In this document: positions 15,967 to 53,815 of the stretch, one piece after another
How the letters are laid out: the number at the start of each line of letters is the position of its first letter
Position numbering within the stretch: the stretch's first letter is position 1
Source: Nesterenkonia sedimenti
GTDB lineage: Bacteria; Actinomycetota; Actinomycetes; Actinomycetales; Micrococcaceae
Assembly (NCBI RefSeq): GCF_012641515.1
Contig: NZ_JABAHY010000004.1
Location: 145,989-209,988, forward strand
Length of the DNA stretch: 64,000 nt
Direction: 5' to 3'
Made by a program: the position numbers and the translations under genes
Notes under the pieces: generated by a model
Database searches by the model: none
What the model saw: only the letters and a program-made list of their open reading frames with translations
Told to the model about the DNA's origin: nothing

Positions 15967-17198
15967 GAGGTGGCCTCCTGGGGGATGGTCTTGAGGGCGG
16001 CGGAGCTGGGGTCCGCCAGGGAGCTCAGCAGCGTGACCCGGGGGATAACCCCCAGCAGCCGGCCGTCGTCGTCGACCACGGCCAAACCGGCGGCATGTTC
16101 AGCGGCTGCATTGAGCAGCTCTGCCAGCACGGTGGTGGAGCTGGTGGTCGGCATCGGACGGATGAGCCCCTCCAAAGTGTCCTGACCTGAGGCCACACCC
16201 TCAGCGGCGTCGGTCTCATAGACCACACCCAGAAGGTGCTTTGCCTGATCGACTACACAGAGGGCAGTGGTCTGGTTCTCACGCATCAGTCGGTGGGCAG
16301 CGCGGGGGCCCTGCTCGGCGCCCAGCAGTGCCACCGGCGGCTCTTTGACATCCCCGGCAGTCAGCACCCGGGTGCGGTCCACATCCTGGATGAACTGCGC
16401 GACATAGTCATTGGCGGGATCATTGAGGATCTGCTCGGTGGTTCCGTTCTGCACGATGCGGCCATCGCGCATCACCGCGATCCGGTTGCCCAGACGCATC
16501 GCCTCATTGAGGTCGTGGGTGATGAAAACAATCGTCTTGCCCAACTCCTGCTGCAGCTCCAGCAACTGGTCCTGCATCTCCTTACGGATCAGCGGATCCA
16601 GGGCGGAGAAGGCCTCATCCATGAGCATCAGCTCAGTCTCGGCTGCCAGGGCGCGGGCCAAGCCCACACGCTGGCGCATACCGCCGGAGAGCTCATGGGG
16701 ATAGTAGTACTCATAGCCCTTCAGGCCCACCAGCTCCAGGGACTCCTTGGCCTTCTTCTCCCGGTCACTGCGATTGACCCCACGAGTCTCCAGGGCATAG
16801 GCGGCGTTCTGGCCCACTGTGCGGTGCGGCAGCAGGGCGAAATGCTGGAAGACCATCGAAATCTTCTCCCGCCGGATCTGGCGCAGTCGTTTGGCGTTGA
16901 CCGTGGTGATGTCCTGGCCGAAGATCTCCACTGTCCCCTCAGTGGGCGGCTGAATTCCGTTCAGCGTACGGATCAGCGTGGATTTGCCGGAGCCGGAGAG
17001 GCCCATGACCACGAAGATTTCACCGCGGGCGACTTCAAAACTGGCATCAATAACAGCCGCAGTTCCTAGGGATTTCACCTCATCTCGGGTGGCCCCTGCT
17101 TTGAGTTTACGAACTACGGTCTCGGGCCGTTTGCCGAATGCCTTATAGACATTGCGCACACTGACCGCGGATTGTGAATTATTCGAATTGTCAGGCAA
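15963..17198 (-). CDS. opuAA: Glycine betaine/proline-type ABC importer, ATPase with CBS domains
   Basis: The product has about 411 residues if it starts at the TTG at 17198, chosen because GAGGAG lies 9 bases before it; a TTG at 17243 is in frame upstream. Walker A is GLSGSGKST, the signature is LSGGMRQRVGLARAL, and Walker B is LMLMDEAFSALDP. About 120 C-terminal residues form two CBS domains, which in OpuA sense ionic strength and gate transport. It is the first gene of the operon and is divergent from the RamB-like regulator. Confidence 0.9.
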   Translation of the reverse strand: MPDNSNNSQSAVSVRNVYKAFGKRPETVVRKLKAGATRDEVKSLGTAAVIDASFEVARGEIFVVMGLSGSGKSTLIRTLNGIQPPTEGTVEIFGQDITTVNAKRLRQIRREKISMVFQHFALLPHRTVGQNAAYALETRGVNRSDREKKAKESLELVGLKGYEYYYPHELSGGMRQRVGLARALAAETELMLMDEAFSALDPLIRKEMQDQLLELQQELGKTIVFITHDLNEAMRLGNRIAVMRDGRIVQNGTTEQILNDPANDYVAQFIQDVDRTRVLTAGDVKEPPVALLGAEQGPRAAHRLMRENQTTALCVVDQAKHLLGVVYETDAAEGVASGQDTLEGLIRPMPTTSSTTVLAELLNAAAEHAAGLAVVDDDGRLLGVIPRVTLLSSLADPSSAALKTIPQEATS

Positions 17199-17305
17199 CC
17201 CTCTGAACTCCTCATGCGCGTGATTGAGCTCCAAAACTATCAAACTTGAGTGACATCACTTGGGGCCTGTGGTAGCAGGTGCGACCTATGCCACATTTTT
17301 GGCTT

Positions 17306-36725: not shown

Positions 36726-36746
36726 ACGAATACAGGCCAGAACCCA

Positions 36747-36962
36747 GATGCGGGAGAGTCCGGCAGCGGCAGACCTCCGCAGCCCGGCGCCGAAGGAGCA
36801 AGATTCCCCTTCGAATCTCTCAGGCCCAGGTACCGCATCCGGGTGGCGACTCTGGAAAGCAGACCGGTGCGCCGGTCTCACCCAAGGTGCAAGCCGGGAA
36901 ATCCCGGTGAATCTCTCAGGTCAGATTACAGAGCAAGGGGTATATGACCGTGAATCACCCCT
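36747..36962 (+). ncRNA. Tandem glycine riboswitch in front of gcvP
   Basis: Two aptamers follow one another. The first has P1 from GATGCGG (36747) to CCGCATC (36839) with GCCGAAGGAGCAA and AATCTCTCAGGC. The second (about 36845-36940) has GACTCTGGAAAGCAG, CCAAGGTGCAAG and AATCTCTCAGGT, ending ACAGAGCAAGGGG. The paired GGGG end can pair with ACCCC at 36957-36961, giving a possible expression platform that frees or hides the gcvP start. No T run is seen, so control is more likely at translation (inference). Glycine should switch the genes on. Confidence 0.95.
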
Positions 36963-36980: not shown

Positions 36981-39887
<2,907 letters not shown>

Positions 39888-39970: not shown

Positions 39971-41089
39971 ATGACTGAACTGAAGCAGACAGCACTGGCG
40001 GCCGAACATGAGGCCCTAGGCGCATCCTTCACCGACTTCGGCGGCTGGAAGATGCCCCTGAAGTACACCTCCGAACTGGAGGAGCATAAAGCGGTGCGCA
40101 GCAAGGCCGGTATCTTCGACCTCTCCCATATGGGGGAGGTCCGGGTGGTCGGTGAGGATGCCGCCGTCTTCCTCAACACTGCCCTGGTGGGAAACCTCGC
40201 CAAGATCGTGCCCGGTAAGGCGAAGTACTCGCTGATCGTCAACGAGGCCGGCGGCATCCTGGATGATCTGATCACCTACCGAATCGGTGAGCAGGAGTAC
40301 CTGGTCATCCCCAATGCCGCCAACCGGCACACTGTGGTGGAGGCCCTGCAGCAGCGGACCGAAGGTTTCGACGTCGAAATCTGGGACGAAACTGAGGGGA
40401 TCAGCCTCATCGCCGTGCAGGGTCCGGCCAGTCAGGCCATCATCTCCTCAGTGGTCCGGGCCACCGAGGTGGAACTGGTCGAGGAGGTCGGCTATTACGC
40501 CCACACCACGGTGACCATCGGCGGCCAGGAGATCCTGTTGGCCCGCACCGGCTACACCGGGGAGGACGGATTCGAGCTCTACCTGCCCAATGAGAAGGCC
40601 GGTGCCCTCTGGCGTGCCCTGCTGGAGGCCGGTGTCGATTTCGGCCTGACCCCCTGCGGACTGGCCTCCCGGGACTCCCTGCGCCTGGAGGCCGGAATGC
40701 CCCTCTACGGCAATGAGCTCAGCACCGGGCGCAAGCCTCAGGAAGCCGGCCTGCCGGTGGTGGCCTTCTCCAAGGAGGAGGACTTCGTGGGCCGCGCAGC
40801 CCTGGAAGAGGCCAAGGCCGATGGTCTGGGCAAGACCACCGGTCAGCGACTGGTCGGACTCAAAGCCGCAGGCAAGCGGGCAGCCCGTTCCGGCTACACC
40901 ATCACCGACGACGCCGGAACACCCGTTGGTGAGATCACCTCGGGTGCTCCCAGCCCCACTCTGGGGCACGCCATCGCCATGGGATACGTGGAGGTGGCCC
41001 ATTCAGAGCCCGGCACCCAGCTTCAGGTGGATGTCCGCGGCAAACCGATACCTTTTGAGGTAGTGAAGCTGCCGTTCTACCGGCGGTAG
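39971..41089 (+). CDS. gcvT: Aminomethyltransferase, T protein of the glycine cleavage system
   Basis: A 372-residue enzyme that moves the methylene group from aminomethyl-H protein to tetrahydrofolate, releasing ammonia. TDFGGWKMPLKY, DLSHMGEVRV, ARTGYTGEDGFELYLP and LRLEAGMPLYG fit the family, and length is normal. GGAG precedes the ATG. It is separated from gcvP by the triple repeat and is followed by sdaA after 16 bases. Confidence 0.96.
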   Translation: MTELKQTALAAEHEALGASFTDFGGWKMPLKYTSELEEHKAVRSKAGIFDLSHMGEVRVVGEDAAVFLNTALVGNLAKIVPGKAKYSLIVNEAGGILDDLITYRIGEQEYLVIPNAANRHTVVEALQQRTEGFDVEIWDETEGISLIAVQGPASQAIISSVVRATEVELVEEVGYYAHTTVTIGGQEILLARTGYTGEDGFELYLPNEKAGALWRALLEAGVDFGLTPCGLASRDSLRLEAGMPLYGNELSTGRKPQEAGLPVVAFSKEEDFVGRAALEEAKADGLGKTTGQRLVGLKAAGKRAARSGYTITDDAGTPVGEITSGAPSPTLGHAIAMGYVEVAHSEPGTQLQVDVRGKPIPFEVVKLPFYRR

Positions 41090-41105: not shown

Positions 41106-42578
41106 ATGGCCCTCGGAGTCTTCGACCTGTTCAGTGTGGGAGTGGGCCCGTCATCCTCCCACACAGTAGGACCAATGCGGGCGGCCCGACGGTTCGTCGC
41201 CGAACACCTGCTGGGCCTGAATCCGGGAGAGGAGCCAGCCCCGCGGGAGCACCAGGGCAAGGCCGAGGAGGCCGCCCTGGCCAAGGTTCCGGTCATCGAT
41301 GAGGTCGCCGGAATCCAGGTGGAACTCTTCGGCTCCCTCTCAGCCACCGGAGCAGGACACGGAACCTTCGATGCGATCCTGCTGGGGCTGGAAGGCTGGG
41401 CGGCCGAGGAGATCCTGCCCGAGGAGGTCGACGAGCGTAAAGCCGATCTTGAGGCCACCGGAGTGGTCCAGGTGGCCGCGCAGCTGGGTCAGCGCAGGGA
41501 TATCACCCTGCGAGTCTCGGACTTCATCCAACGGCCCCTGACCCACCTGGAGCGGCACTCCAATGCTATGACCCTGCGTGCCGTAGGCGCCGAGGATGAG
41601 CTGCTGGCCGAGGAGACCTACTACTCCGTGGGCGGGGGCTTCGTTCTGGCCGACTCCGAGGACCCCGAGGCGATCGCCACCGGTGAAGTGGAGGTTCCCT
41701 ATCCCTTCACCACCTCAGCCGAGCTGATGGGCCACTGCCGGGAGACCGGACTCTCGGTCTCCGAGGTGATGCTGGCCAATGAACTCGCCCGTCGGCCTGA
41801 GGAAGAAGTTATGGACGGCATCTGGCACCTCTGGGAGGTTATGGAAGCCTGTAAGGACTCCGCCTTGAAGCGGGAGGGGCCGCTGCCCGGAGGACTCAAG
41901 GTGCGCCGTCGTGCCCCGGACTGGCATGCCAAAATGTGGCGTGATGACCCCGAACGCTCCCATGCCTACTGGCAGGAATGGGTCAACCTCGTGGCCTTGG
42001 CGGTCAATGAGGAGAACGCCTCCGGTGGTCGAGTGGTCACCGCCCCCACCAATGGGGCAGCCGGGATCATCCCCGCCGTCGGGTTCTATGCCACCCACTA
42101 CGGGCCTGGGGCCAGCTTCGCGGATAAGGAGAACATCCGCCAGATCGTGACGACCTTCCTGCTCACCGCTGCAGCGGTGGGCGTGCTCTATAAGGAACAG
42201 GCCTCGATCTCCGGGGCTGAGGTCGGCTGTCAAGGTGAGGTGGGTTCGGCCTCATCAATGGCCGCCGCCGGACTCTGCGAGGTCCTCGGCGGGACACCGG
42301 CACAGGTGGAGAACGCTGCCGAGATCGCCATGGAACACAACCTGGGGCTGACCTGCGACCCCATCAGCGGCCTGGTTCAGGTCCCCTGCATCGAACGCAA
42401 TGCGATCGCTGCGACCAAAGCGGTCAATGCCGCCCGGATGGCGCTGATGGGCGATGGCGAACACCGGGTCTCCCTGGATGAGGTCATCACCACCATGCGG
42501 GAGACCGGCAAAGATATGTCCACCAAATACAAGGAAACTGCCCTGGGCGGGCTGGCGGTCAACGTCGTCGAATGCTGA
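41106..42578 (+). CDS. sdaA: L-serine ammonia-lyase, iron-sulfur type
   Basis: A 490-residue single-chain enzyme converting L-serine to pyruvate and ammonia. The N-terminal [18 protein letters not shown] and C-terminal cysteine-bearing stretches [16 protein letters not shown] and [18 protein letters not shown] hold the [4Fe-4S] cluster and active site. It is coupled to gcvT in the glycine-controlled operon, so glycine turned into serine can flow to pyruvate. It ends 24 bases before the convergent SDR gene. Confidence 0.96.
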
Positions 42579-42602: not shown

Positions 42603-43409
42603 TCACAGGGGAGTGACGTAGGCCCCGGTGATACCGCCGTCGACCACAAAGGCATTGGCGGTCATGAATGAGGAATCGTCACTGGCCAGGAAGGCCACTG
42701 CTGCAGCCAGTTCCTCCGGTTCGGCGAAGCGTCCCTTGGGCACATGCACCAGACGCCGCTGGGCCTTCTCCGGCTCCTTCGCGAAGAGTTCCTGCAGCAG
42801 GGGAGTGTTCACCGGCCCGGGGCAGAGCGCGTTGACCCGGATGCCCTCCCGGGCGAATTCCACACCCAGTTCCCGGGTCATCGACAGCACCCCGCCCTTG
42901 GAGGCTGAGTAGGAGATCTGCGAGGTCGCAGCGCCCATCAGTGCCACAAATGAGGCGGTGTTGATGATGGAGCCGGACTTCGCCGGACGCATATGCTCCA
43001 GGGCGTATTTAGAGCAGAGGTAGACCGAGGTGAGGTTGATCTCCTGGACCTTTCGCCAGGTCTCGAGATCGGTCTCGGTGATTGAGGCATCGGCCTCCGG
43101 GGAGACCCCGGCGTTGTTGAAGGCGATATCCACCCCGCCGTAGGTCTGCGCGGCAGTATCGAAGAGGTTCTTGACCTGCTGCTCATCGGCAACATCCACG
43201 GAGACGAAGCTGCCGCCGACCTCCTCGGCCACCTGCTCACCGGCCTCGGCGTTGAGATCTCCGATGACGATCTTCGCGCCCTCGGAGGCCATTCGGATGG
43301 CGGTGGCCTTGCCGATGCCTGAGCTGCCACCGGTGATCACGGCGACTTTGCCGGCCAGGCGATTGGATTCCAGCCGGGCCGGGGCGATGTTCTGCGGTTT
43401 TTCCGACAT
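42603..43409 (-). CDS. Short-chain dehydrogenase/reductase of the amine operon
   Basis: A 268-residue SDR with TGGSSGIGKATA for NAD(P), NNAGVSPEA and the YSASK catalytic tetrad. It is the last gene of the minus-strand amine operon. The matching gene in Mycobacterium tuberculosis (Rv2857c) is next to aldC, an amidotransferase gene and glnA4 in the same order. In the proposed route it would oxidise the alcohol of gamma-glutamylethanolamide to an aldehyde (inference). Confidence 0.87.
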   Translation of the reverse strand: MSEKPQNIAPARLESNRLAGKVAVITGGSSGIGKATAIRMASEGAKIVIGDLNAEAGEQVAEEVGGSFVSVDVADEQQVKNLFDTAAQTYGGVDIAFNNAGVSPEADASITETDLETWRKVQEINLTSVYLCSKYALEHMRPAKSGSIINTASFVALMGAATSQISYSASKGGVLSMTRELGVEFAREGIRVNALCPGPVNTPLLQELFAKEPEKAQRRLVHVPKGRFAEPEELAAAVAFLASDDSSFMTANAFVVDGGITGAYVTPL

Positions 43410-43433
43410 GAGTGTCCTTTCGTGGGACCCGGA

Positions 43434-44798
43434 TCAGCCCCGGGTTGCGTAGAAAACGGTCTTGGTCTCGGTGAATGCCTCGGCGGCATCGGGACCCAGT
43501 TCCCGGCCCAGGCCGGACTGTTTGAACCCGCCGAAGGGAGCGGAGTAACGCACTGAGGAATGCGAGTTCACCGCGAGATTGCCTGCCTGAACCTTCCGGG
43601 AGACCCGCAGCGCGCGGTCCATATTGTCGGTCCAGATGGACCCTGAGAGCCCGTATTCGGTGTCATTGGCAATCCTGATGGCCTCCTCCTCGGTGCTGAA
43701 GGGCACCACCGAGACCACCGGTCCGAAGATCTCCTCGGTGAAATCCGGAGTTGTGGTGGCACCGGGAGTCAGCACGGTCGGCGGGAACCAGAAGCCGGGG
43801 CCCTCAGGGGTGGTGCCGCGGAAGGCAAGCTGCCCGCCCTCGACATACCGGGCCACCGAATCGCGGTGCTCGGCGGTGATCAGCGGGCCCATCTCGTTCT
43901 GCGACTGGGCGGGGTCACCGACCCGGAAGGCCTTGACCGCCTGCTCGAAGTGGCCCATGAACTCCTCGTAGACGTTTTGCTGAACCAGCAGACGCGACCG
44001 GGAGCAGCAGTCCTGACCGGAGTTGTCGAAGACACCGCCTGGGGCAGCAGCTGCCGCCTCGGCGAGGTCGGCGTCGTCGAAGATGATGTTGGAGTTCTTC
44101 CCGCCCAGTTCCAAGGTGACCTGCTTGACCTGATCAGCGCAGCCGGCCATGATCTGCTTGCCCACCTCGGTGGATCCGGTGAAGACCACTTTGCGTACCC
44201 CCGGGTGAGTCACGAACCGGTTGCCCACCACCGAACCCTTACCGGGCAGCACGGTCACCACACCCTCGGGCAGACCGGCCTCCAGGGCCAGTTCACCCAG
44301 GCGGATTGCGGTCAGCGGGGTGACCTCGGCGGGTTTGATCACTACCGTGTTCCCAGCGGCCAGGGCCGGGGCCATACCCCAGCCGGTGATCGGCATGGGG
44401 AAGTTCCAGGGGACAATGATTCCGACGACGCCCACCGGCTCCTGATAGGTGATGTTGATCCCGCCCTCGACCGGGATCTGCCGACCGAAGAGCCGCTCGG
44501 GAGCTGCCGCGTAGTAGCGCAGCACATCCCGAACATTGCCGGCCTCGCCGCGGGCACTGCCGATAGTGTGACCGGCGTTCTTGACCTCCAGCTGGGCCAG
44601 ATTCTCCAAATCCGCGTCCACTGCATCGGCGAAGCGGTGCAGCAGCCGGGCGCGGTCAGCGGGGCTTACCTCACGCCAGGTCTCGAAGGCCTGCTGCGCT
44701 TTGGCGATGGCGGCATCAGCTGCAGCCTCATCGGCCAGCTCGACCCTCTGGATGACTTCTTCAGTTGCGGGATTGATGACCTCGTGAAACTCGCTCAT
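43434..44798 (-). CDS. Aldehyde dehydrogenase of the amine operon
   Basis: A 454-residue NAD-dependent aldehyde dehydrogenase starting at the ATG at 44798, preceded by GAAAGGAG; an extension to 44888 lies inside the upstream gene. VPWNFPMPI, LELGGKNSNIIFDDAD and the catalytic Cys in NSGQDCCSRSRLL are present. It resembles PuuC/AldC-type enzymes oxidising gamma-glutamylated or amino aldehydes. Its start overlaps the amidotransferase stop by 4 bases (ATGA), and the operon order matches mycobacterial aldC. Confidence 0.92.
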   Translation of the reverse strand: MSEFHEVINPATEEVIQRVELADEAAADAAIAKAQQAFETWREVSPADRARLLHRFADAVDADLENLAQLEVKNAGHTIGSARGEAGNVRDVLRYYAAAPERLFGRQIPVEGGINITYQEPVGVVGIIVPWNFPMPITGWGMAPALAAGNTVVIKPAEVTPLTAIRLGELALEAGLPEGVVTVLPGKGSVVGNRFVTHPGVRKVVFTGSTEVGKQIMAGCADQVKQVTLELGGKNSNIIFDDADLAEAAAAAPGGVFDNSGQDCCSRSRLLVQQNVYEEFMGHFEQAVKAFRVGDPAQSQNEMGPLITAEHRDSVARYVEGGQLAFRGTTPEGPGFWFPPTVLTPGATTTPDFTEEIFGPVVSVVPFSTEEEAIRIANDTEYGLSGSIWTDNMDRALRVSRKVQAGNLAVNSHSSVRYSAPFGGFKQSGLGRELGPDAAEAFTETKTVFYATRG

Positions 44799-45571
44799 GC
44801 TCGGCCGCTCCTTTCTCGGTGCTGATGGGCTGCCTCGGTAAAGCCGCGAAACAGCCTGAGATCTTCGATTCTGCGCTCGGGGTGCCACTGCACTGCCAGC
44901 ATCCAGCCCGGGAACTGGGACTGAGCCTCATCGGTGAGCTCCAGGGCCTGGATGACACCGTCGTCACTGCGGGCAGTGACCTTGAGGCCCGCACCGATAC
45001 GGTCAACGGCCTGGTGGTGATAGACCGAAACCTCGGGGCGCTGACCCAAGAGGGAGGCCACCCGGCTGCCGGGGTCGGTGGTCACTGGGATCCGGCCGAA
45101 CTCACCGGGTGCCGGCTGGTAGGTCTTGGAGTCGACCACCTCGGGAAGATGCTGGATGAGGCTTCCTCCGCGCAGCACATTGAGCACCTGCAAGCCCCGG
45201 CAGATCGCAAACAGTGGCAGACCGTGATGCAGAGCCGCCTGGGTCAGGGCGAAATCATGGTCATCGCGGTGTGACTGTGGCTGGGTGAGCGGATGTGCTT
45301 CGGCCCCATACCGCTGAGCGTCGACATCGGAGCCGCCTGCGATGATCAGCCCATCGAGGTCCTCGACGATCGAGACATCGGTGCCGGCCGGGGGCAGCAT
45401 CAGCGGAGTGCCGCCGGCGGCGATGATGCAGTTGATATAGGTGTCCGAGAGCAGGGCCGCTGATTCCTGCCAGACTCCCCATTGGGCCGGCTGGAGGTAG
45501 GTGGTAATACCGATCCGGGGGCGGGCCGCTTTCTCAGTGGGGCCGATGCCGATGAGATCAGAGCCGTTCAA
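44795..45571 (-). CDS. Class I glutamine amidotransferase-like gamma-glutamyl hydrolase (PuuD type)
   Basis: A 258-residue member of peptidase family C26. The nucleophile Cys is in FAICRGLQVLNV, and the His/Glu pair lies near the end (AVQWHPERR). LIIAGGSDVDAQRYG is typical of PuuD, which cleaves gamma-glutamyl-GABA. It would release glutamate from the gamma-glutamyl product of this operon. It overlaps the ligase gene by 14 bases. Confidence 0.9.
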   Translation of the reverse strand: MNGSDLIGIGPTEKAARPRIGITTYLQPAQWGVWQESAALLSDTYINCIIAAGGTPLMLPPAGTDVSIVEDLDGLIIAGGSDVDAQRYGAEAHPLTQPQSHRDDHDFALTQAALHHGLPLFAICRGLQVLNVLRGGSLIQHLPEVVDSKTYQPAPGEFGRIPVTTDPGSRVASLLGQRPEVSVYHHQAVDRIGAGLKVTARSDDGVIQALELTDEAQSQFPGWMLAVQWHPERRIEDLRLFRGFTEAAHQHRERSGRA

Positions 45572-46937
45572 ATCCGCGCTTCCTCTCCCAGTCGGTCACC
45601 GTCTGGTTGAAGGCCTCCAACTCGATCCACGCGGCGTTGACGTAGTGGTCGACCACCTCATCACCGAAGGCTGTCCGGGCGAACTCTGAGCCATCCAGCA
45701 GTTCGCTGGCCTCAGCGAGGGTGGTGGGCAGCTGCTGGACCTCAGCATCGTATGCACTTCCGGACACCGGTGGTGGGCATTCCAGTTTGTTCTCAATCCC
45801 GTGCAGGCCTCCGGCGATCAGTGCGGCGGTGGCCAGATAGGGGTTGAGGTCAGCGCCCCCGACCCTGATCTCAGTGCGCAGACTGGAACCATGCCCGACC
45901 ACGCGGACGGCACAGGAACGGTTGTCGAAACCCCAGGCGATGGCGGTGGGGGCGAAGCTGCCCTTGGCGAAACGTTTATAGGAGTTGATATTCGGTGCCA
46001 GGAAATAGGTCAGATCAGGCATCGTGGCCAAGAGCCCGGCGATGAACTGCTCCATGATCTCGGAGAAGCCGTGCTCGCCATCGCCGACCATAGCGGGTTT
46101 GCCCTCGGCGTCATTGAGGCTGAGGTGGATATGGCAGGAGTTGCCCTCCAGCTGGTTGTACTTGGCCATAAAGGTGATCGCCTGGTCCTCCTGGGCGGCG
46201 ATTGCCTTGGCTCCGTATTTGAAGATCGAGTGGTTATCGCAGGTTGCCAGAGCCTCCCGGTAGCGGAAGGTCAGCTCATGCTGGCCGGGGTTGCACTCAC
46301 CTTTGATGCCCTCCACGTAGAAGCCCGCCCCGGCCATTGAATTGCGGATCTTGCGCATCAGCGGTTCCACCCGGGTCGAGCCCAGCAGTGAATAGTCCAC
46401 GTTGTACCGGTTGCTGGGCTCCAGGTTCTGGTAGCCGAGGTCGAAGGCCTCCTCATAGCTGGTGTTGAAGGTGATGAACTCCAGCTCAGTGCCGATGAAT
46501 GCCTCCAGCCCCTGATCGGAGAGCCGGTTCATCTGTCGCTTGAGGATCTGCCGCGGAGACTGAACCACTGGCGAACCATCGGTCCAGAGCACATCGCAGA
46601 CCACTAGGGCAGTGGCCGGAAGCCAGGGGATCCGGCGCAGGGTGGAGATATCGGGGCTGAAGACCATATCCCCGTAGCCGGTCTCCCAGGAGCTCATGGA
46701 GTAGCCCTCCACGGTGTTCATCTCCACATCTACGGCCAGGAGGTAGTTGCAGCCTTCAGCGCCGTGGCTCAGCGCCTCATTGACGAAGAACTCCGCGCCC
46801 AGCAGCTTGCCCTGGAGCCGGCCCTGAACATCGGTGATGGCCACGATGACAGTGTCGATCTCTCCCTCTGTGGTCAGTCTGCGCAGCTCGTCGAGACTCA
46901 GCATGCCCCGGGTGGTCGGATCAGTGGGAGAGGTCAT
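45558..46937 (-). CDS. Glutamine synthetase-like gamma-glutamyl-amine ligase (GlnA4/PuuA type)
   Basis: A 459-residue member of the glutamine synthetase superfamily. Signatures for glutamate and metal binding are kept (GTELEFITFN, GIKGECNPGQHELTFRYREA, GNSCHIHLSLNDAEGKP, NINSYKRFAKGSFAPTAIAWGFDNRSCAVRV), while ammonia-specific features are not obvious. Streptomyces GlnA4 joins ethanolamine to glutamate and GlnA3 joins polyamines. The presence of an ethanolamine-permease-like neighbour favours the first (inference). It is the first gene of the operon, with a TTGACA promoter upstream and a GGATTACACC leader. Confidence 0.88.
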   Translation of the reverse strand: MTSPTDPTTRGMLSLDELRRLTTEGEIDTVIVAITDVQGRLQGKLLGAEFFVNEALSHGAEGCNYLLAVDVEMNTVEGYSMSSWETGYGDMVFSPDISTLRRIPWLPATALVVCDVLWTDGSPVVQSPRQILKRQMNRLSDQGLEAFIGTELEFITFNTSYEEAFDLGYQNLEPSNRYNVDYSLLGSTRVEPLMRKIRNSMAGAGFYVEGIKGECNPGQHELTFRYREALATCDNHSIFKYGAKAIAAQEDQAITFMAKYNQLEGNSCHIHLSLNDAEGKPAMVGDGEHGFSEIMEQFIAGLLATMPDLTYFLAPNINSYKRFAKGSFAPTAIAWGFDNRSCAVRVVGHGSSLRTEIRVGGADLNPYLATAALIAGGLHGIENKLECPPPVSGSAYDAEVQQLPTTLAEASELLDGSEFARTAFGDEVVDHYVNAAWIELEAFNQTVTDWERKRGFERL

Positions 46938-46952
46938 AGGTGTAATCCTCGG

Positions 46953-46993
46953 CTAAAGGTATTTTTTTAGGCCAAATGCACTGTCAATGTAAT
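46953..46993 (-). promoter_or_regulatory. Promoter of the amine operon, copy 1 of a shared 41-base element
   Basis: On the minus strand TTGACA (46987-46982) and AAATAC (46964-46959) are 17 bases apart. The element shares AAAGGT, a T-rich part, GGNCCAA and CAA(A)TGTAAT, in that order, with 48604-48644 before the permease gene. Confidence 0.6.
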
Positions 46994-47039
46994 TCAGCTC
47001 TCAGGGCCCGGTCAAGGCAACCTCGTGGTGGCCCCAGCC

Positions 47040-48506
47040 TCAGTTGAGTTCAGACTCCGCTTTGGTCAGGGCATCGAACTCCTCCTCTGGGGCCTGAGCC
47101 ACCAGCCGATGCCGGGAGTAGAACCAGAAATAGGCGATGGCCAGCAGGAAGATGATCGCGGTGATACCGGCGGCCAGGACGTCGACGAAGAATGTCGCGA
47201 TCACGGCGACCGTGGCAAGCACCAGGGCAATGCCGGTGGTGACCCGACCACCAGGGGTACGGTAGCCGCGCTCCAGTTCAGGTTCCCGAATCCTGAGCAT
47301 AATGTGGGAGAGATTCAGCAGGACATAGGAGACCGTGGCCCCGAAGACCGCGATATTGATCAGCAGCCCGCCATCCTTCAGCCAGGCTGCCAGTCCGAAG
47401 CCGATGGTGCCAGGGATCAGCAGGGCCAGATATGGGGTCTTGCGCCGACTGGTCAGTGACAGGGCGGTGGGGAGATAGCCGGCCCGGGAGAGCGCGAAGA
47501 GCTGCCGGGAGTAGGCGAAGACGATGGAGAAGAAGCTGGCCACCAGACCGAAGAGGCCCGCCCAGTTGACGAAGGTGGCCAGGCCCGAATTCTGACCATA
47601 GATATGCCGCAGTGCCTCAGGCAGCGGATTATCCGAGGTTCCCATCGCTTCTGCCCCTGCGGTGCCTGGGACCAGGACGAGTACGCAGGCGCCGAAGAAA
47701 AGCAGGATCACGATGGCGGTGATGATTCCCCGTGGCATATCCCGTTTGGGGTTGGCTGATTCCTCAGCGGCCAGCGGCACGCCTTCGACGGCCAGGAAGA
47801 ACCAGATGCCGAAGACCAGCGCGGCCAATGCTCCCGAGATGCCCAGAGGGAGGAACTCCGAGGAGCCCAGGGCCTCAATGGGGGCGATATCGAAGAGGTT
47901 GGCGGCGTCGAAATGTGGCACTGTGCCCACTACAAAGGCTAAAAGGGCGATGACGGCTACTGCAGTGATCACGAACATCACCTTCAATGCCTCGCCGACA
48001 CCCCATAAGTGCAGGCCGACGAAGATGGCATAGCAGACCAGGTAGACCACCCAGATCGGGATATCCTCTGGCAGTCCCAGGGCGCGAACATAGCCTCCGA
48101 TGAAGGTCACAATGGCTGCCGGGGCCACCGCATACTCGATGAGGATGGCCATACCGGTGGCAAAACCGCCCAGTGGTCCCAGCGCTCGGCGGGCGAATCC
48201 GTATCCTGCACCGGCCGTGGGCAGGGTGGAGGAGAGCTCGGCCAGGCCCAGGACCATGCAGGTGTACATCAGGCCCATCAGGAGGAAGGCGATGAGCAGT
48301 CCGCCCCATCCGCCCTCGGCCAATCCGAGGTTCCATCCGGAGAAGTCCCCGGAGATCACATATGCCACTCCGAGTCCGGCGAGCAGTACCCAGCCTGCGG
48401 CACCTTTCTTGAGCTGGCGGGCTGCGAGGTAATTGGAGCCGACATCGGTGTATTCGATGTTCGTGCTGGTGGCCTGTTTCTGACTGAGGGCTTTCCGCAA
48501 AGCCAT
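47040..48506 (-). CDS. APC-family amine permease, ethanolamine-permease-like
   Basis: A 488-residue amino acid/polyamine/organocation transporter with 12 helices. YVISGDFSGWNLGLAEGGWGGLLIAF, AELSSTLPTAGAGYGFARRALGP and IEYAVAPAAIVTFIGGY are typical of the ethanolamine permease branch. It lies just upstream of the ligase operon on the same strand but has its own promoter, and is divergent from a GntR regulator gene. The substrate is inferred from family and context. Confidence 0.85.
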   Translation of the reverse strand: MALRKALSQKQATSTNIEYTDVGSNYLAARQLKKGAAGWVLLAGLGVAYVISGDFSGWNLGLAEGGWGGLLIAFLLMGLMYTCMVLGLAELSSTLPTAGAGYGFARRALGPLGGFATGMAILIEYAVAPAAIVTFIGGYVRALGLPEDIPIWVVYLVCYAIFVGLHLWGVGEALKVMFVITAVAVIALLAFVVGTVPHFDAANLFDIAPIEALGSSEFLPLGISGALAALVFGIWFFLAVEGVPLAAEESANPKRDMPRGIITAIVILLFFGACVLVLVPGTAGAEAMGTSDNPLPEALRHIYGQNSGLATFVNWAGLFGLVASFFSIVFAYSRQLFALSRAGYLPTALSLTSRRKTPYLALLIPGTIGFGLAAWLKDGGLLINIAVFGATVSYVLLNLSHIMLRIREPELERGYRTPGGRVTTGIALVLATVAVIATFFVDVLAAGITAIIFLLAIAYFWFYSRHRLVAQAPEEEFDALTKAESELN

Positions 48507-48579
48507 GAGATTACCGCCGTTGCATCACGGTCCCAGCGCTGGTCGCTGCACTGTACAGGCGGCCAGGAGGTGCGGGGCC

Positions 48580-48591
48580 TGGTTCGAACCA
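48580..48591. promoter_or_regulatory. Palindrome TGGTTCGAACCA in the permease-regulator gap
   Basis: A perfect 12-bp palindrome on the permease side of the gap, within what would be the permease leader. It has the TGGTNNNNACCA shape bound by some FCD-type GntR proteins, so it may serve the adjacent regulator. Confidence 0.5.
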
Positions 48592-48603
48592 CAGGAGCCA
48601 CTT

Positions 48604-48644
48604 CAAAGGTGTATTTCTGGTCCAATGGCTGGCTCAAATGTAAT
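48604..48644 (-). promoter_or_regulatory. Promoter of the permease gene, copy 2 of the shared 41-base element
   Basis: On the minus strand TTGAGC (48637-48632) and ATACAC (48614-48609) are 17 bases apart. The layout matches 46953-46993 base by base in four blocks, so both units probably answer to the same regulator. Confidence 0.6.
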
Positions 48645-48697
48645 CTGCGCCTCACCGGGGGTCAAGAGTTTTGGTGGGAGAAATCTGGTCTTCGCGC

Positions 48698-48703
48698 TAT
48701 GTT
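48698..48703 (+). promoter_or_regulatory. -10 box of the amine-locus GntR gene
   Basis: TATGTT ends 6 bases before the ATG at 48710, again suggesting a leaderless start. Confidence 0.45.
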
Positions 48704-48709
48704 GAGGGC

Positions 48710-49522
48710 ATGGCAACCTCAGCAGGCCCCCCGGTATCGGTAGGCCCCCTCCTGGGCCCGGTGCGTTCGGGCAATGCATTCGAAGAGACGATGGCGCGGA
48801 TGCTGCAGCTGATTCGGCTGGGGTCCATACCGGTGGGTGAGCGGCTGCCCAGCGAGCGGGAGTTGGCCGAGCAGCTCGGGGTCTCTCGCAGCACCCTGCG
48901 CCAGGCCATCGCAGAACTGCAGAGTGCCGGCTATCTGGAAGTTCGGCGGGGACGCTATGGCGGCACCTTCGTCCGCAATCCAGAACCCAATCCAGTCCAG
49001 GAACAGAGCCGGGAGCCCGCACCACGGCCTGATCCGGAAGACCTCGAGGACGCACTGGAGTTCCGGGCCGTTGTCGAAATTGCTGCAGCCGAACGTGCCG
49101 CGGCTGCAGAGCTCACCCAGCGTCAGATCCACGCTCTGCAGGAGACTGTGGCCCAGAGCGCGGAGGCTGATCACTATTCCTATCGCCGCCTGGATTCGCG
49201 ACTGCATCTGCTCATCGCGGAGTTCTCCGGGGTGCCCAGTCTGCTGCGCGCGGTGGCCGATGTACGCACCCGGATCAATGATCTGCTGGACATGATTCCA
49301 CTGCTGCAGGTGAATCTGGACCACAGCGAGGATCAGCACAGGGTGCTGGTCTCAGCAATCATCGACGGCGATGTCCAGAGGGCAAAGGAGATCGCCGCCG
49401 AGCATATTGCAGGCACTGAAAGCCTGCTGCGCGGCTTCCTCGGCGAAGCGTCTACCGAAGCGCAGAAAGGTACCAAGACACACCAGGCGACCGAGAACAG
49501 AGAGGACGCTGATGCCGGATAA
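48710..49522 (+). CDS. GntR-family regulator, FCD (FadR) type, of the amine locus
   Basis: A 270-residue regulator from the ATG at 48710; the frame extends to a TTG at 48671, but the -10 box lies inside that stretch. A winged helix (about 22-85: LIRLGSIPVGERLPSERELA, LGVSRSTLRQAIAEL, GYLEVRRGRYGGTFV) precedes an FCD domain. It is divergent from the permease and likely controls both amine promoters. Confidence 0.87.
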   Translation: MATSAGPPVSVGPLLGPVRSGNAFEETMARMLQLIRLGSIPVGERLPSERELAEQLGVSRSTLRQAIAELQSAGYLEVRRGRYGGTFVRNPEPNPVQEQSREPAPRPDPEDLEDALEFRAVVEIAAAERAAAAELTQRQIHALQETVAQSAEADHYSYRRLDSRLHLLIAEFSGVPSLLRAVADVRTRINDLLDMIPLLQVNLDHSEDQHRVLVSAIIDGDVQRAKEIAAEHIAGTESLLRGFLGEASTEAQKGTKTHQATENREDADAG

Positions 49523-49655: not shown

Positions 49656-50885
49656 TCAACTGCGCCCGAGCCAGGCCAGAAGGGTGCTGACTGCCGCATC
49701 AGTGGCGGCGGTCAGGGTCGGTTCGATCACTGGGGCGAAATAGGGCGAGTGGTTCACCGGGCCCTCGGGGTCGCCGTCGGGGGTTCCGCCGAAGAACCAG
49801 AACACACTGGGCACGCCGATGGCTGAGCCCAGGAGCCCGAAATCTTCTGAGCCCATCCGAGGCTTGGACTCGGCAACATTCTGCGCGCCCACAGCCTTCT
49901 GCAGTGCGGGAAGCACCCGGTCCACGGCGGTCTCATCGTTGTAGTTGAGCGGGAAATGGTAGAGCCGCTCCATCTGGGGCTGTTCCAGCCCGGCAGCAGC
50001 TGCCTCCGCATTGATGATCCGCTCCACTGCGTTGAGCACGGTGCTGCGGACGTCTTCATCCAGGGACCGGATGTTGAGACTGAACTCGGCAGTCTCGGGG
50101 ATGATGTTCTCCTTCAGCCCGGCGTGGAAAGTCCCAACGGTCACCACTGCCGAATCCAAGGGGGAGAGCTCCCGGGAGACCACAGACTGCAGCCGGGTCA
50201 CCATGGCCGCAGCAGCCACAATGGGGTCTTTGCCGTTCTGCGGCTGGGAGCCGTGGGTCTGCCGACCAGTGACGGTGACCCTGAAGGAATCAGCCATCGC
50301 CATAGCTGGGCCGGCCGAGATATCCACAGTGCCGGCCTTGCCGGGGGAGACATGCTGACCCAGGACCACCTCCGGCCGCGGTGCCTTATCCCAGATGCCG
50401 TCCTCGATCATGGCGGCAGCACCTGCGGCAGTCTCCTCACCGGGCTGGAAGATCAGCACCAGGGTTCCAGACCATGTCTCACGATTGCGCAGCAGCACCT
50501 GGGCAGCCCCGAGCAGACCGGTGATATGGCTGTCGTGACCGCAGCCGTGCATCACCGGGACATCGGTGCCATCAGGCAGCGTCCCGGTGGCTTCGGAGGA
50601 ATACTCCAAGCCGGTGGCTTCCTCGATGGGAAGGGCATCGGTATCGGCCCGGAAGGCGACGACGGGGCCATCGCCGTTTTCGACAATCCCGACCACTCCG
50701 GTGCCGCCACAGCGGAAGCTGGAGATCCCCAGGGCGGTCAGCTCGCGCTCAATCCGCTCGGCAGTGCGGTGTTCCTGCATGGAGAGTTCCGGGTTCTGAT
50801 GGAACTCCTTGTAGAGGGTGTGCAGATGCTGGCGCTCCTGCTCGGTCAGCTGCCGTTCGGCTGTCAGTTCAGTGGTCAAGGTCAT
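49656..50885 (-). CDS. M20-family amidohydrolase
   Basis: A 409-residue metal-dependent hydrolase of the IAA-amino acid/hippurate hydrolase type. MHGCGHDSHITGLLGAA, GEETAAGAAAMIEDG and the C-terminal SEDFGLL carry metal ligands (Cys, His, Glu). GAAAGGTG precedes the ATG. It cleaves N-acyl amino acids or dipeptides. It is the third gene after two DUF5058-like membrane proteins on the same strand, which could import the substrate. Confidence 0.9.
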   Translation of the reverse strand: MTLTTELTAERQLTEQERQHLHTLYKEFHQNPELSMQEHRTAERIERELTALGISSFRCGGTGVVGIVENGDGPVVAFRADTDALPIEEATGLEYSSEATGTLPDGTDVPVMHGCGHDSHITGLLGAAQVLLRNRETWSGTLVLIFQPGEETAAGAAAMIEDGIWDKAPRPEVVLGQHVSPGKAGTVDISAGPAMAMADSFRVTVTGRQTHGSQPQNGKDPIVAAAAMVTRLQSVVSRELSPLDSAVVTVGTFHAGLKENIIPETAEFSLNIRSLDEDVRSTVLNAVERIINAEAAAAGLEQPQMERLYHFPLNYNDETAVDRVLPALQKAVGAQNVAESKPRMGSEDFGLLGSAIGVPSVFWFFGGTPDGDPEGPVNHSPYFAPVIEPTLTAATDAAVSTLLAWLGRS

Positions 50886-50935
50886 GGCACCTTTCGATGA
50901 CTCGATTCGGATAGTTCACCAGGTATAGCTCCAGG

Positions 50936-51652
50936 TTATGCCCCGGCAGTCGGCTTCCTGGCCTCACCGTTGGTTCCGCGGAGGAACCAGGAGGCCAGGA
51001 TCGTCACCAGCACGGCCAGGGCGATGTTGAATGCTCCCAAGGCAGGGAAGATCGGCAGGATGACGAACAGCACCAGCAGCGAGGAGAGGATCGCGAAGAT
51101 CGTGGGCCGGATCTGCTTCACTGTGGCCGCGGCCTGAACGAAGACGGCCCCCAGAATGGCCGGCAGGATATAGGTCTGGGCCACCTCAGTGATCTCCTCG
51201 GGAACCTGCCGCAGCACCCAAGTGCCCAGGATTCCGACAAAGAGCAGCAGTGAGGTCACATGGACGATGGCGGCACCGCAGATGGCCATCACTGAGACCA
51301 GATCACCCTGGCGGCTGCCTGGCTTGACCCCCACCCGGCTCTGCGCCACCACTGCGGCGGGAACCAGCTTATTGGCGATATTGCCGATCATGAAGGCCTG
51401 GTACATAGCCGCCTGCCCCAGGACCGGGAAGAAGCTGACCGGTTCCACCACCGCGAGGATGAGATAGACCGCAGCCACGGCGAGATAGGCGGTGAGCACC
51501 ATTGTGAAGCTGATATCGAAATCGGTCATCCAGATCAGGCCCAGTGGGGCGATCCAAGAGACCAGCAGGGTCGCCGCCATGGTGATGCGGCCCCACCGGG
51601 CAGTGGTCTTCTCGAAACCGTTCATTGCGGTATCGGCAGTCTGTGTCGTCAT
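50936..51652 (-). CDS. Membrane protein, second part of a DUF5058-linked pair
   Basis: A 238-residue protein from the ATG at 51652, with GGAGAG upstream; an extension to 51727 overlaps the previous gene. Six to seven membrane helices are seen (ISFTMVLTAYLAVAAVYLILAVV, FFPVLGQAAMYQAFMIGNIANKL, VVAQSRVGVKPG). It lies 37 bases after its partner and 50 before the M20 gene. The pair probably acts as a two-part transporter, but no known mechanism fits. Confidence 0.7.
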   Translation of the reverse strand: MTTQTADTAMNGFEKTTARWGRITMAATLLVSWIAPLGLIWMTDFDISFTMVLTAYLAVAAVYLILAVVEPVSFFPVLGQAAMYQAFMIGNIANKLVPAAVVAQSRVGVKPGSRQGDLVSVMAICGAAIVHVTSLLLFVGILGTWVLRQVPEEITEVAQTYILPAILGAVFVQAAATVKQIRPTIFAILSSLLVLFVILPIFPALGAFNIALAVLVTILASWFLRGTNGEARKPTAGA

Positions 51653-51689
51653 AGAAAACTCTCCGAACGGATTATCAATCGAGTCGAGA

Positions 51690-52421
51690 TCAGGCCAACG
51701 CTGAGTGGTGGTGAAGGAAATAGGCAACGGTCAGGGAGAGGAAGATCGCCAGTCCCAGGGCCCACTCCTTGAGCCAGGACATTCCCTTGAACCGGGAGAG
51801 ATAGAGCATCACCGCGAGGGACAGCCCCGAGATGAGGACTGTTATGGCGTGGATCGAGGACTCCGGCAGCTGATCGATGGAGAGAACGGCAAAGACACCC
51901 AGGAGTGCAGCACCTGGTACCAGCCGCATCACCTCCGGATTCACCCGTTCCATTTTGCTGCCGCCTCTTTTGAGAATTGGCGTCATAATGAGGGTGGAAA
52001 TCAGCCACATTCCGCCAGAAATACACATTGCGGCGAAGGCCACCACAAAGACTTCCTGGGTCCATGCCGAACCGCCCAGGCTGGCATCCATCGTTTCAGC
52101 CGCAACAGTTGCGGAGGTGGTCTCAGTTGCTGCGGAGCCGACCAGGCCGATGCGCATCAGAACGGCAGGGGTTGCGAAGACCGTCAGCAGGGCAACCGCC
52201 ACCAGCAGGACCGCCAGGGAGGGGCCGATGGAGGCAATCGCGCCTGATCGGAACGCTGTGGTAAGAGTCTTCTTATCCATCCCGATATCGCGACCGGCAG
52301 TCTTTGCCGCCCGCATATAGATCACTGACTGAATCGTGATAATGAGATAAACAGCCAAGGCGCAAGCCCATAAGAAAGGGTTTTGAGCCAAAGCCCAGAT
52401 ATCAGTGGACTGAGCATCCAT
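51690..52421 (-). CDS. DUF5058-like membrane protein
   Basis: A 243-residue protein with about six helices. FLWACALAVYLIITIQSVIYMRAAKTA near the N-terminus and FRSGAIASIGPSLAVLLVAVALL are the features that recall DUF5058. It opens the operon that ends with the M20 hydrolase. It is divergent from the carbamoylase-type gene across 143 bases, so shared control is likely. Confidence 0.7.
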   Translation of the reverse strand: MDAQSTDIWALAQNPFLWACALAVYLIITIQSVIYMRAAKTAGRDIGMDKKTLTTAFRSGAIASIGPSLAVLLVAVALLTVFATPAVLMRIGLVGSAATETTSATVAAETMDASLGGSAWTQEVFVVAFAAMCISGGMWLISTLIMTPILKRGGSKMERVNPEVMRLVPGAALLGVFAVLSIDQLPESSIHAITVLISGLSLAVMLYLSRFKGMSWLKEWALGLAIFLSLTVAYFLHHHSALA

Positions 52422-52564
52422 ATACGGTCAACCTTCCGCGATGTGGCAAAGTTATCGATTTGTCCCTGGGCAGTTAACGAGATCAATCTACAAGCCGGGC
52501 GTTAAATGAATGTTACGGGTCCTGCGGCATAATCGGAACAGCCCCGACCAGAAGAAAGGCCACC

Positions 52565-53815
52565 ATGACTGTTACCCCATACCTGGACCGCGTGGAATCC
52601 GAGCTCAAGGAACTGGCTGACATGGTCGATGCTGACCAGCCGGGCTGGACGCGGCAGGCGATGACCGAGACCGATCTCGCTGGGCGTCAGTGGGCGCTGA
52701 AGAGAATGCGCGAGGTCGGCCTCGATGCCCATATCGATGAGGCAGGCAATGTCATTGGTGTGCTCAAGGGCCGCCGCGGGGGCCGTCAGCTGATGACCGG
52801 GTCCCATACCGATACGGTCGAAGCCGGTGGGCGTTTCGACGGAATGATCGGCGTCGTCGGTGCTTTGGAGGCAGTGCGGCTGCTGAAGGAGACCGGCCAG
52901 CAGCTGGACCATGACCTGGTTGTGGTGGACTTTTTCAATGAGGAGCCCAATCGATTCGGGCTCAGCTGCGTAGGCTCCCGGGCGATGACCGGAACACTGA
53001 ACCCGCAGGCTTTCGGTGTCACCGACGAGACCGGGACCAGCTTTGCCCAGAGCCTGCAGATCGCTGGGATCGAGGCAGAAGCCATGCACCGCAGCCGGTG
53101 GGACTTCTCCCGCACAGATGCCTTCGTGGAGCTGCACATCGAACAGGGGCCCCGCTTGGAGGAGATGGGCACCGAGATCGGAATGGTCACCAGTATCACC
53201 GGAGTCTCCCGATTCAGGGCACTGTTCACCGGGCGGCGTGACCACGCCGGAACCACCGGAATGGAGGCACGGGTGGACGCCGGCTGCGCAGCTGCCGGCA
53301 CCGTGCTCGCAGTCGAACGCATCGCTGAGCAGGGCAACTCCGAGCTGCCCGGCAGCAAAGGGACCTCCGGGGGAGTGCGGTTCACGCCTGAGGCGATCAA
53401 TGTGGTCACCGAGCTGGCCGAGATTCGCGGAGAGTTCCGCAGTCCCCAGGGCAGCTGGCTGCGCGAGGCCGAGGAGCAGCTGAGCTCAGCCGCGGCTCAG
53501 GAGGCCGCCCGCAGGGGCGTCGACGTCGAAGTCGCCTGGCTGCCAACCCAGGATCCGCGGCCGATGAATGACCAGGTAGTCGCCCACTGCCGTGATGCCG
53601 TGGACCAGCTGGGGCTCAGCCGCGCCGAGCTTTTCAGCGGGGCCGAGCACGATGCCGCAGTTATCGCCGACCACGTGCCCACCGCCATGCTCTTTGTGCC
53701 CTCACATAAGGGGCGCAGCCACTGCCCGGAGGAATGGACAGACCTCGGCGATATCCAGAAGGGAATCGCCGCTCTGACCGAATCCCTGATCCGGCTCGAC
53801 CGGGTCGGCAGTTAG
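52565..53815 (+). CDS. N-carbamoyl-L-amino acid hydrolase / allantoate amidohydrolase-type M20 enzyme
   Basis: A 416-residue Zn-dependent hydrolase. GSHTDTVEAGGRFDGMIGVVGALEAV, DFFNEEPNRFG, ELHIEQGPRLEEMG and SGAEHDAAVIA carry the metal ligands and mark the hydantoinase/carbamoylase branch, not the peptidase branch. GAAAGG precedes the ATG. It releases ammonia and carbon dioxide from ureido compounds. It faces the DUF5058-M20 operon, suggesting one scavenging set. Confidence 0.9.
   Translation: MTVTPYLDRVESELKELADMVDADQPGWTRQAMTETDLAGRQWALKRMREVGLDAHIDEAGNVIGVLKGRRGGRQLMTGSHTDTVEAGGRFDGMIGVVGALEAVRLLKETGQQLDHDLVVVDFFNEEPNRFGLSCVGSRAMTGTLNPQAFGVTDETGTSFAQSLQIAGIEAEAMHRSRWDFSRTDAFVELHIEQGPRLEEMGTEIGMVTSITGVSRFRALFTGRRDHAGTTGMEARVDAGCAAAGTVLAVERIAEQGNSELPGSKGTSGGVRFTPEAINVVTELAEIRGEFRSPQGSWLREAEEQLSSAAAQEAARRGVDVEVAWLPTQDPRPMNDQVVAHCRDAVDQLGLSRAELFSGAEHDAAVIADHVPTAMLFVPSHKGRSHCPEEWTDLGDIQKGIAALTESLIRLDRVGS

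Follow-up and report, generated by a model that had tools for sequence, protein, structure and literature searches.

A predicted ethanolamine-to-glycine gene cluster recurrently joined to riboswitch-controlled glycine-consuming genes in actinobacteria

Why does a predicted ethanolamine utilization cassette in Nesterenkonia sedimenti end, tail to tail, against an operon preceded by a glycine riboswitch? The question is raised by a 64,000-nucleotide stretch of this 3.11 Mb genome (contig NZ_JABAHY010000004.1, positions 145,989 to 209,988; hereafter the window), in which the coding ends of sdaA (42578) and of a short-chain dehydrogenase/reductase (SDR) gene (42603) have 24 bases between them. The amine cassette, read on the minus strand from 48506 to 42603, encodes a permease, a GlnA4-type ligase, a C26-family hydrolase, an aldehyde dehydrogenase (ALDH) and the SDR, and is accompanied by a divergent GntR/FCD regulator gene; the opposing operon consists of gcvP, gcvT and sdaA. 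A route from ethanolamine to glycine has already been proposed for such cassettes, and the link to the gcv operon was the initial annotation's own proposal. Here, genome-context comparison of GlnA4 loci was combined with profile searches, riboswitch models and operator prediction. We consider it likely that the two operons constitute a two-step catabolic relay, in which the ethanolamine cassette feeds the glycine-switched gcvP-gcvT-sdaA genes. The relay rests on the observed genes, the riboswitch, the orthology to a Streptomyces cluster and the recurrent joining of the two gene sets; from these we infer the substrates, the effector of the regulator, the direction of the switch and the relay itself.

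In total, 178 GlnA4 loci were mapped (176 distinct; L162 is the same as L022 and L179 the same as L070, and the repeats are unlinked): the window, 80 named loci, 17 loci from 57 relatives searched, and 80 taken from the 205 genomes with GlnA4 in a class-wide sample of 393. The named loci are the best 80 of 587 confirmed ones and lean to high identity. The 80 class-wide genomes were hand-picked, comprising genera with listed match positions and 21 of the 24 genomes of the family denoted f33; genera with matches weaker than E of about 1e-175 are missing from this sample, because only stronger match positions were listed. A locus was considered linked if its flank contained gcvP, gcvT, gcvH or sdaA at identities of at least 45%, 42%, 45% and 45%, respectively; links can be missed, because some loci are cut by contig ends. 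GcvT relatives of only 27-33% identity were left uncounted. Such proteins occur in the flanks of L176, L180, L184, L212, L227, L230, L234, L237, L245, L247, L249 and L254, and are perhaps aminomethyltransferases for other amines.

By this definition, 32 of the 178 loci are linked: 18 of the 44 named Pseudonocardiaceae loci, 11 of the 21 loci of family f33, one each in families f7 and f51, and the window, with none among the 110 others. The glycine set is at least partly co-directional with glnA4 and downstream of it in 30 of the linked loci; the exceptions are the window, where the two sets converge, and L236, where sdaA is co-directional and lies 1.15 kb upstream. As a control, 35 other open reading frames (ORFs) of the window, chosen by length, were compared with the remaining 177 loci at a threshold of at least 45% identity. 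No relative was found for 29 of them, while four had one each and two had 11 and 8; in the same 177 loci, relatives of gcvT numbered 30, of gcvH 26, of gcvP 19 and of sdaA 11, a contrast weakened by the leniency of the control, since the compared genomes may lack some of the control genes entirely. The recurrence of gcv, glyA or sdaA genes and of a glycine riboswitch beside glnA4, where 29 of 35 control genes do not recur, suggests that the two operons belong together through glycine, as the initial annotation had proposed.

The joined loci are built in different ways. In 14 of the 18 linked Pseudonocardiaceae loci (Amycolatopsis, Prauserella and Qaidamihabitans), a single array reads glnA4-C26-ALDH-SDR-riboswitch-gcvP-gcvT-gcvH-glyA, where glyA encodes serine hydroxymethyltransferase (SHMT), and in Prauserella and Qaidamihabitans the gcv operon is followed by a GntR gene of the same family as the window regulator. 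The glycine set is gcvP-gcvT-sdaA-GntR in Amycolatopsis sacchari, gcvP-gcvT-GntR in L065, and gcvP-gcvT in A. deserti (L072) and A. thermalba (L076), in both of which no ALDH match was found between C26 and SDR. The loci of family f33 have a divergent GntR gene, glnA4-ALDH-SDR-C26, a riboswitch and gcvT-gcvH, with sdaA as well in eight of 11 at the set threshold. In genome G041 (L152), the order glnA4-ALDH-SDR-C26-gcvT-gcvH-sdaA-permease is accompanied by a GntR gene and a divergent riboswitch-gcvP unit (domains of six of these confirmed), and the only piece missing is glyA, for which the 19.9-kb stretch contains no match. Outside the linked groups, the order glnA4-C26-ALDH-SDR is seen in Rhodococcus (L024) and Nocardia (L079). 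On a quick GlnA4 tree, parsimony requires 10 linkage changes, compared with 25-32 in 300 shuffles, a measure that does not count origins; within groups, linkage is therefore inherited. Differences in gene order and gene content argue that the glnA4 cluster was joined with glycine genes at least three times separately, in Pseudonocardiaceae, in f33 and in the window.

The riboswitch accompanies this linkage closely. The Rfam glycine model matches all 15 linked loci scanned, i.e. the window and 14 of 14 others. A second model, R1, derives from 15 aptamers, of which 13 belong to linked loci and two to gcvP leaders of the window's genus; it matches 31 of the 32 linked loci, including 18 of the 19 not used in building it, and one of the 146 unlinked loci (Fisher's exact p = 2e-32, a value that ignores relatedness). 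The sole linked locus without a match is L236, and the sole unlinked match, in Kibdelosporangium (L061), precedes glyA-sdaA 5.5 kb downstream of the SDR gene. In the window, both aptamers of the riboswitch that the initial annotation had placed before gcvP-gcvT-sdaA pass the Rfam gathering score, and all 19 same-genus gcvP leaders contain at least two aptamer cores.

The gene identities and coordinates given for the amine operon by the initial annotation are borne out by Pfam and NCBIfam profile matches (Table 1). The ligase had been described as of the GlnA4/PuuA type, of which the GlnA4 half stands: a GlnA4-homologous ligase gene adjoins SDR, ALDH and amidotransferase genes, a GntR-type regulator and an ethanolamine permease are both present, and the protein is 62-64% identical to GlnA4 of named Streptomyces loci, whose clusters have the same partners. 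Its nearest solved structures are 5dm3 (E 7e-128) and 11zs (E 6e-126). The PuuA half, and with it the Puu putrescine pathway, was rejected, as the ligase reaches 202 of 650 bits and the hydrolase 91 of 266 bits (PuuD), far below the curated cut-offs. The eut ammonia-lyase pathway was rejected as well: the window genome has no match to PF06751 (EutB), for which only E. coli matched among 14 control genomes. The SDR exceeds the cut-off of the NF004713 equivalog (467 against 404 bits), named 3-oxoacyl-ACP (acyl carrier protein) reductase, and this match neither supports nor excludes the role predicted here; the ALDH ORF has a longer GTG-start variant reaching 44888. There is a single gcvP match in the genome at E <= 1e-100. 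Since gcvH and glyA are encoded elsewhere in the genome and EutB was not found, the parts for converting glycine through serine to pyruvate are present.

The chemistry predicted for the cassette has precedents; statements drawn from publications, here and below, refer to the parts of each text that were available. In Streptomyces coelicolor, GlnA4 is a gamma-glutamylethanolamide synthetase and mutation of glnA4 impairs growth on ethanolamine (PMC6529630), so the ligase activity cited by the initial annotation is established for that organism; the subsequent two oxidations and hydrolysis to glycine were proposed there for the same gene set (PMC6529630), and by analogy the route may be assigned to the window. 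The S. coelicolor cluster SCO1610-SCO1615 contains, like the window though in a different gene order, genes for an SDR, an ALDH, GlnA4, a regulator and a glutamine amidotransferase, and a putative permease belongs to the cluster in other streptomycetes, as it does in the window (PMC6529630, PMC8998196). The gamma-glutamyl ethanolamine route has been reviewed (PMC9397018, PMC11356490). An analogous operon of Phaeobacter MED193, whose proteins are raised on phosphorylethanolamine, and of Chromohalobacter salexigens has the same proposed chemistry to glycine by way of an ethanolamine gamma-glutamylase, with the tripartite ATP-independent periplasmic (TRAP) transporter EtoX where the window has a permease (PMC10132767); C. 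salexigens uses an iron-dependent dehydrogenase and a PF05013 hydrolase, whereas the window encodes an SDR and a C26 hydrolase (PMC9397018). On the glycine side, a Streptomyces gcvT-gcvH-glyA-sdhA operon, in which sdhA is the L-serine dehydratase gene, has a tandem glycine riboswitch and the same downstream genes as the window set; the words ethanolamine and glutamine synthetase are absent from the available text of that report, and no joining with glnA4 is described in it (PMC12452182). No published description of a coupling between the glnA4 cluster and gcv genes was found in the literature searched, which excludes most subscription papers, nor is it described in the available parts of PMC12674515 and PMC11477304, which mention both ethanolamine and the glycine riboswitch.

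According to the proposed relay, ethanolamine would enter through the permease and be ligated to glutamate by GlnA4, the SDR and the ALDH would oxidize the alcohol to gamma-glutamylglycine, and the C26 hydrolase would free glycine and glutamate. The GntR/FCD protein would act as a repressor that binds a palindromic operator and silences the cassette in the absence of ethanolamine and its glutamyl derivative. The glycine produced would then switch on gcvP-gcvT-sdaA via the tandem riboswitch, GcvPTH would split one glycine into CO2, ammonia and methylene-tetrahydrofolate (THF), and SHMT would join methylene-THF to a second glycine, giving serine that SdaA could convert to pyruvate.

A candidate operator for the first of these two controls was obtained from 13 intergenic stretches at cluster promoters, in which a palindrome near CAATGGACTGAAAACAGTCCATTG was read by eye. 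With a matrix built without the window sites, the two best sites of the window score 22.8 bits (48604-48627) and 19.5 bits (46954-46977, upstream of glnA4; Table 1); the next-best window score is 12.9 bits and the maximum in 100 random 64-kb sequences is 19.1. The first site begins directly downstream of a putative promoter recognized by eye (-35 TTGACC, 48660-48665; -10 TACATT, 48637-48642; 17-base spacer), as expected for a repressor. Of the 165 loci that did not contribute to the matrix, 78 lack a site scoring 14 bits or more. In 82 of the other 87, the best site is placed near the 5' end of a cluster gene or no more than 450 bases upstream of it. A FadR-like operator pattern was tried and rejected, as it gave scattered matches only. 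Band shifts show that the related S. coelicolor regulator EpuRI binds its own promoter and that of glnA4, which belong to eight reported targets that also include other amine genes (PMC8998196); the words operator, palindrome and consensus are absent from the main texts of PMC6529630 and PMC8998196.

Table 1. Coordinates of the features predicted or identified in the window
Feature	Position	Strand	Evidence
Tandem glycine riboswitch, aptamers 36741-36845 and 36850-36933	36741..36933	+	Rfam RF00504, 68.7 and 42.6 bits (cut-off 32); own model R1
gcvP, glycine decarboxylase	36981..39887	+	TIGR00461, 1282 bits (cut-off 859)
gcvT, aminomethyltransferase	39971..41089	+	TIGR00528, 349 bits (cut-off 236)
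sdaA, L-serine ammonia-lyase	41106..42578	+	TIGR00720, 611 bits (cut-off 345)
Segment absent from 12 of the 19 gcvP loci of the same genus	42579..53841		Gene order in relatives
SDR, predicted gamma-glutamylethanolamide dehydrogenase	42603..43409	-	PF13561; YxxxK by eye
ALDH, predicted to yield gamma-glutamylglycine	43434..44801	-	PF00171, 545 bits
C26 hydrolase, predicted gamma-glutamylglycine hydrolase	44795..45571	-	PF07722, 179 bits; Cys and His-Pro-Glu motifs by eye
GlnA4-type ligase, predicted gamma-glutamylethanolamide synthetase	45558..46937	-	PF00120, 330 bits
Candidate operator upstream of glnA4	46954..46977	-	19.5 bits, matrix built without window sites
Ethanolamine permease	47040..48506	-	TIGR00908, 518 bits (cut-off 382)
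Candidate operator	48604..48627	-	22.8 bits, matrix built without window sites
GntR/FCD regulator, resembling EpuRI in position and domains	48671..49522	+	PF00392, PF07729; likelier start ATG 48710 by eye

Several observations weigh against the relay. Most of the mapped loci, 146 of 178, are unlinked, including all 21 named Streptomycetaceae, in which neither gcv or sdaA nor a glycine riboswitch was found near glnA4 (some of these loci are cut by contig ends). The co-occurrence in relatives by which the initial annotation had asked its link to be judged holds in several actinobacterial groups and fails in the window's own genus, where none of the 12 other glnA4 clusters is linked. In f33, a gap of 1.3 to 4.5 kb separates C26 from gcvT in six of 11 loci, and in L207 this gap holds an FtsX-like gene on the opposite strand. 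The window gcv promoter has no operator site; the best nearby score, 8.5 bits, is inside the random range, and direct control of the window gcv genes by the GntR regulator was rejected. The window gcv leader folds like its shuffles (z -0.48), and in the 19 same-genus leaders no counterpart of the start-codon pairing in the window's fold is recognizable by eye. A conserved start-codon-masking helix was thus rejected as the expression platform, and the proposed ON control rests for these reasons on the precedent of S. griseus and B. subtilis, in which glycine riboswitches are reported to turn gcv on with glycine (PMC5666159). Catalysis, the regulator's effector and glycine-triggered induction in N. 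sedimenti itself are what we infer.

The strongest alternative is that the glycine and glutamate made by the cassette serve mainly as nitrogen sources and that the cassette landed beside gcv-sda by chance, with no relay between them. The history of the window locus speaks for such an event. In 12 of 19 same-genus gcvP loci, gcvT or sdaA is directly followed by the acyl-CoA dehydrogenase gene (PF00441), which in the window is located at 53842, about 11.3 kb beyond sdaA (the other seven loci differ or end). The intervening segment holds the amine cassette, the regulator, M20 hydrolases and membrane proteins, and the amine-cassette neighbourhood stands beside gcv in none of the 12 same-genus relatives with the ligase. 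The window GlnA4 groups with that of Sediminivirga luteola (79% identity, quick tree), apart from its own genus, whose versions are 55-58% identical to it in 11 of the 12 genomes having one. Judged from gene order and this grouping, the amine cassette very probably arrived in the window as an insert. No transposase or integrase was found among the ten insert genes run through Pfam, and a foreign base composition was rejected as a mark of the insert, its G+C content (0.59-0.66 in 1.5-kb windows) being only slightly lower than that upstream (0.64-0.68). The adjacency in the window is therefore a single event, which could be due to chance and proves little, and function has to be argued from the other lineages. 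It is there that the chance reading loses ground, since the same partners and the riboswitch recur in other groups and in other orders, and most control genes do not; we regard it as unlikely.

Two further gene groups of the window may be mentioned here. Within the insert, 49656-53815 encodes two M20 hydrolases, a DUF5058 membrane protein and one protein without a Pfam match, which may form a separate module for amide uptake and hydrolysis; M20 relatives (56% and 31% identity) also flank the glnA4 cluster in genome G040 (L166). Relatives of an ATP-binding cassette (ABC) transporter pair located elsewhere, at 14998-17243 (a PF00528 inner-membrane protein and an ATPase with CBS domains), occur close to GlnA4 in 11 and 8 of the 177 loci. 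We take this pair to be perhaps a transporter for an osmolyte such as glycine betaine.

A second alternative explains the linkage by a shared one-carbon and nitrogen balance and not by substrate flow, with glycine from other sources as the signal and ethanolamine as a minor contributor. In all 22 linked genomes searched, no gcvT match at E <= 1e-60 other than that of the cluster was found, and 19 of the 22 have one gcvP match at this threshold, which in f33 is located away from the cluster. A dedicated second gcv copy was rejected on these grounds; the sole gcvT also serves the general glycine balance, a further point against the relay, and gcv riboswitches of S. griseus have been tied to glycine detoxification (PMC5666159). 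Against a shared balance stand the GntR gene, homologous to the ethanolamine regulator, with which the gcv operon ends in two Amycolatopsis loci as well as in Prauserella and Qaidamihabitans, and the 18.0-bit candidate operator between the regulator and gcvP in G041 (matrix including the window site); this explanation appears distinctly improbable.

The cassette might, finally, handle another small amine, such as putrescine, isopropylamine or another amino alcohol, with an end product other than glycine, given that ligases of this fold take many amines and that the models for the ligase and the hydrolase of the putrescine pathway do give matches, albeit sub-threshold ones. This is the least probable of the explanations, and very much so, in view of the permease match to TIGR00908 well above its cut-off, the recurrent association with a glycine riboswitch and with genes that consume glycine, and the S. 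coelicolor orthologue, which works on ethanolamine and is reported to be neither a glutamine nor a polyamine synthetase (PMC6529630).

The relay from ethanolamine through glycine to pyruvate thus remains the reading that we favour. The pathway is known and the riboswitch operon is known; their recurrent union as a proposed two-sensor unit appears to be new. In the available parts of the literature, the actinobacterial ethanolamine route ends at glycine and glutamate, and its joining with riboswitch-controlled gcv, glyA and sdaA would give it a carbon exit to pyruvate. The regulatory logic would be simple, the substrate being sensed by a protein and the intermediate by an RNA. The analysis also provides a candidate operator for a regulator with published promoter binding, for which no site description was found in the literature searched, and suggests a physiological source of the glycine sensed by actinobacterial glycine riboswitches. 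More tentatively, and at somewhat short of even confidence, an ethanolamine-to-pyruvate unit of one kind may have been assembled separately by several actinobacterial lineages, its first half controlled by a protein repressor that responds to the substrate and its second half by a glycine riboswitch that responds to the product of the first; the glycine cleavage system of these bacteria would then largely serve the catabolism of ethanolamine, a phospholipid head group.

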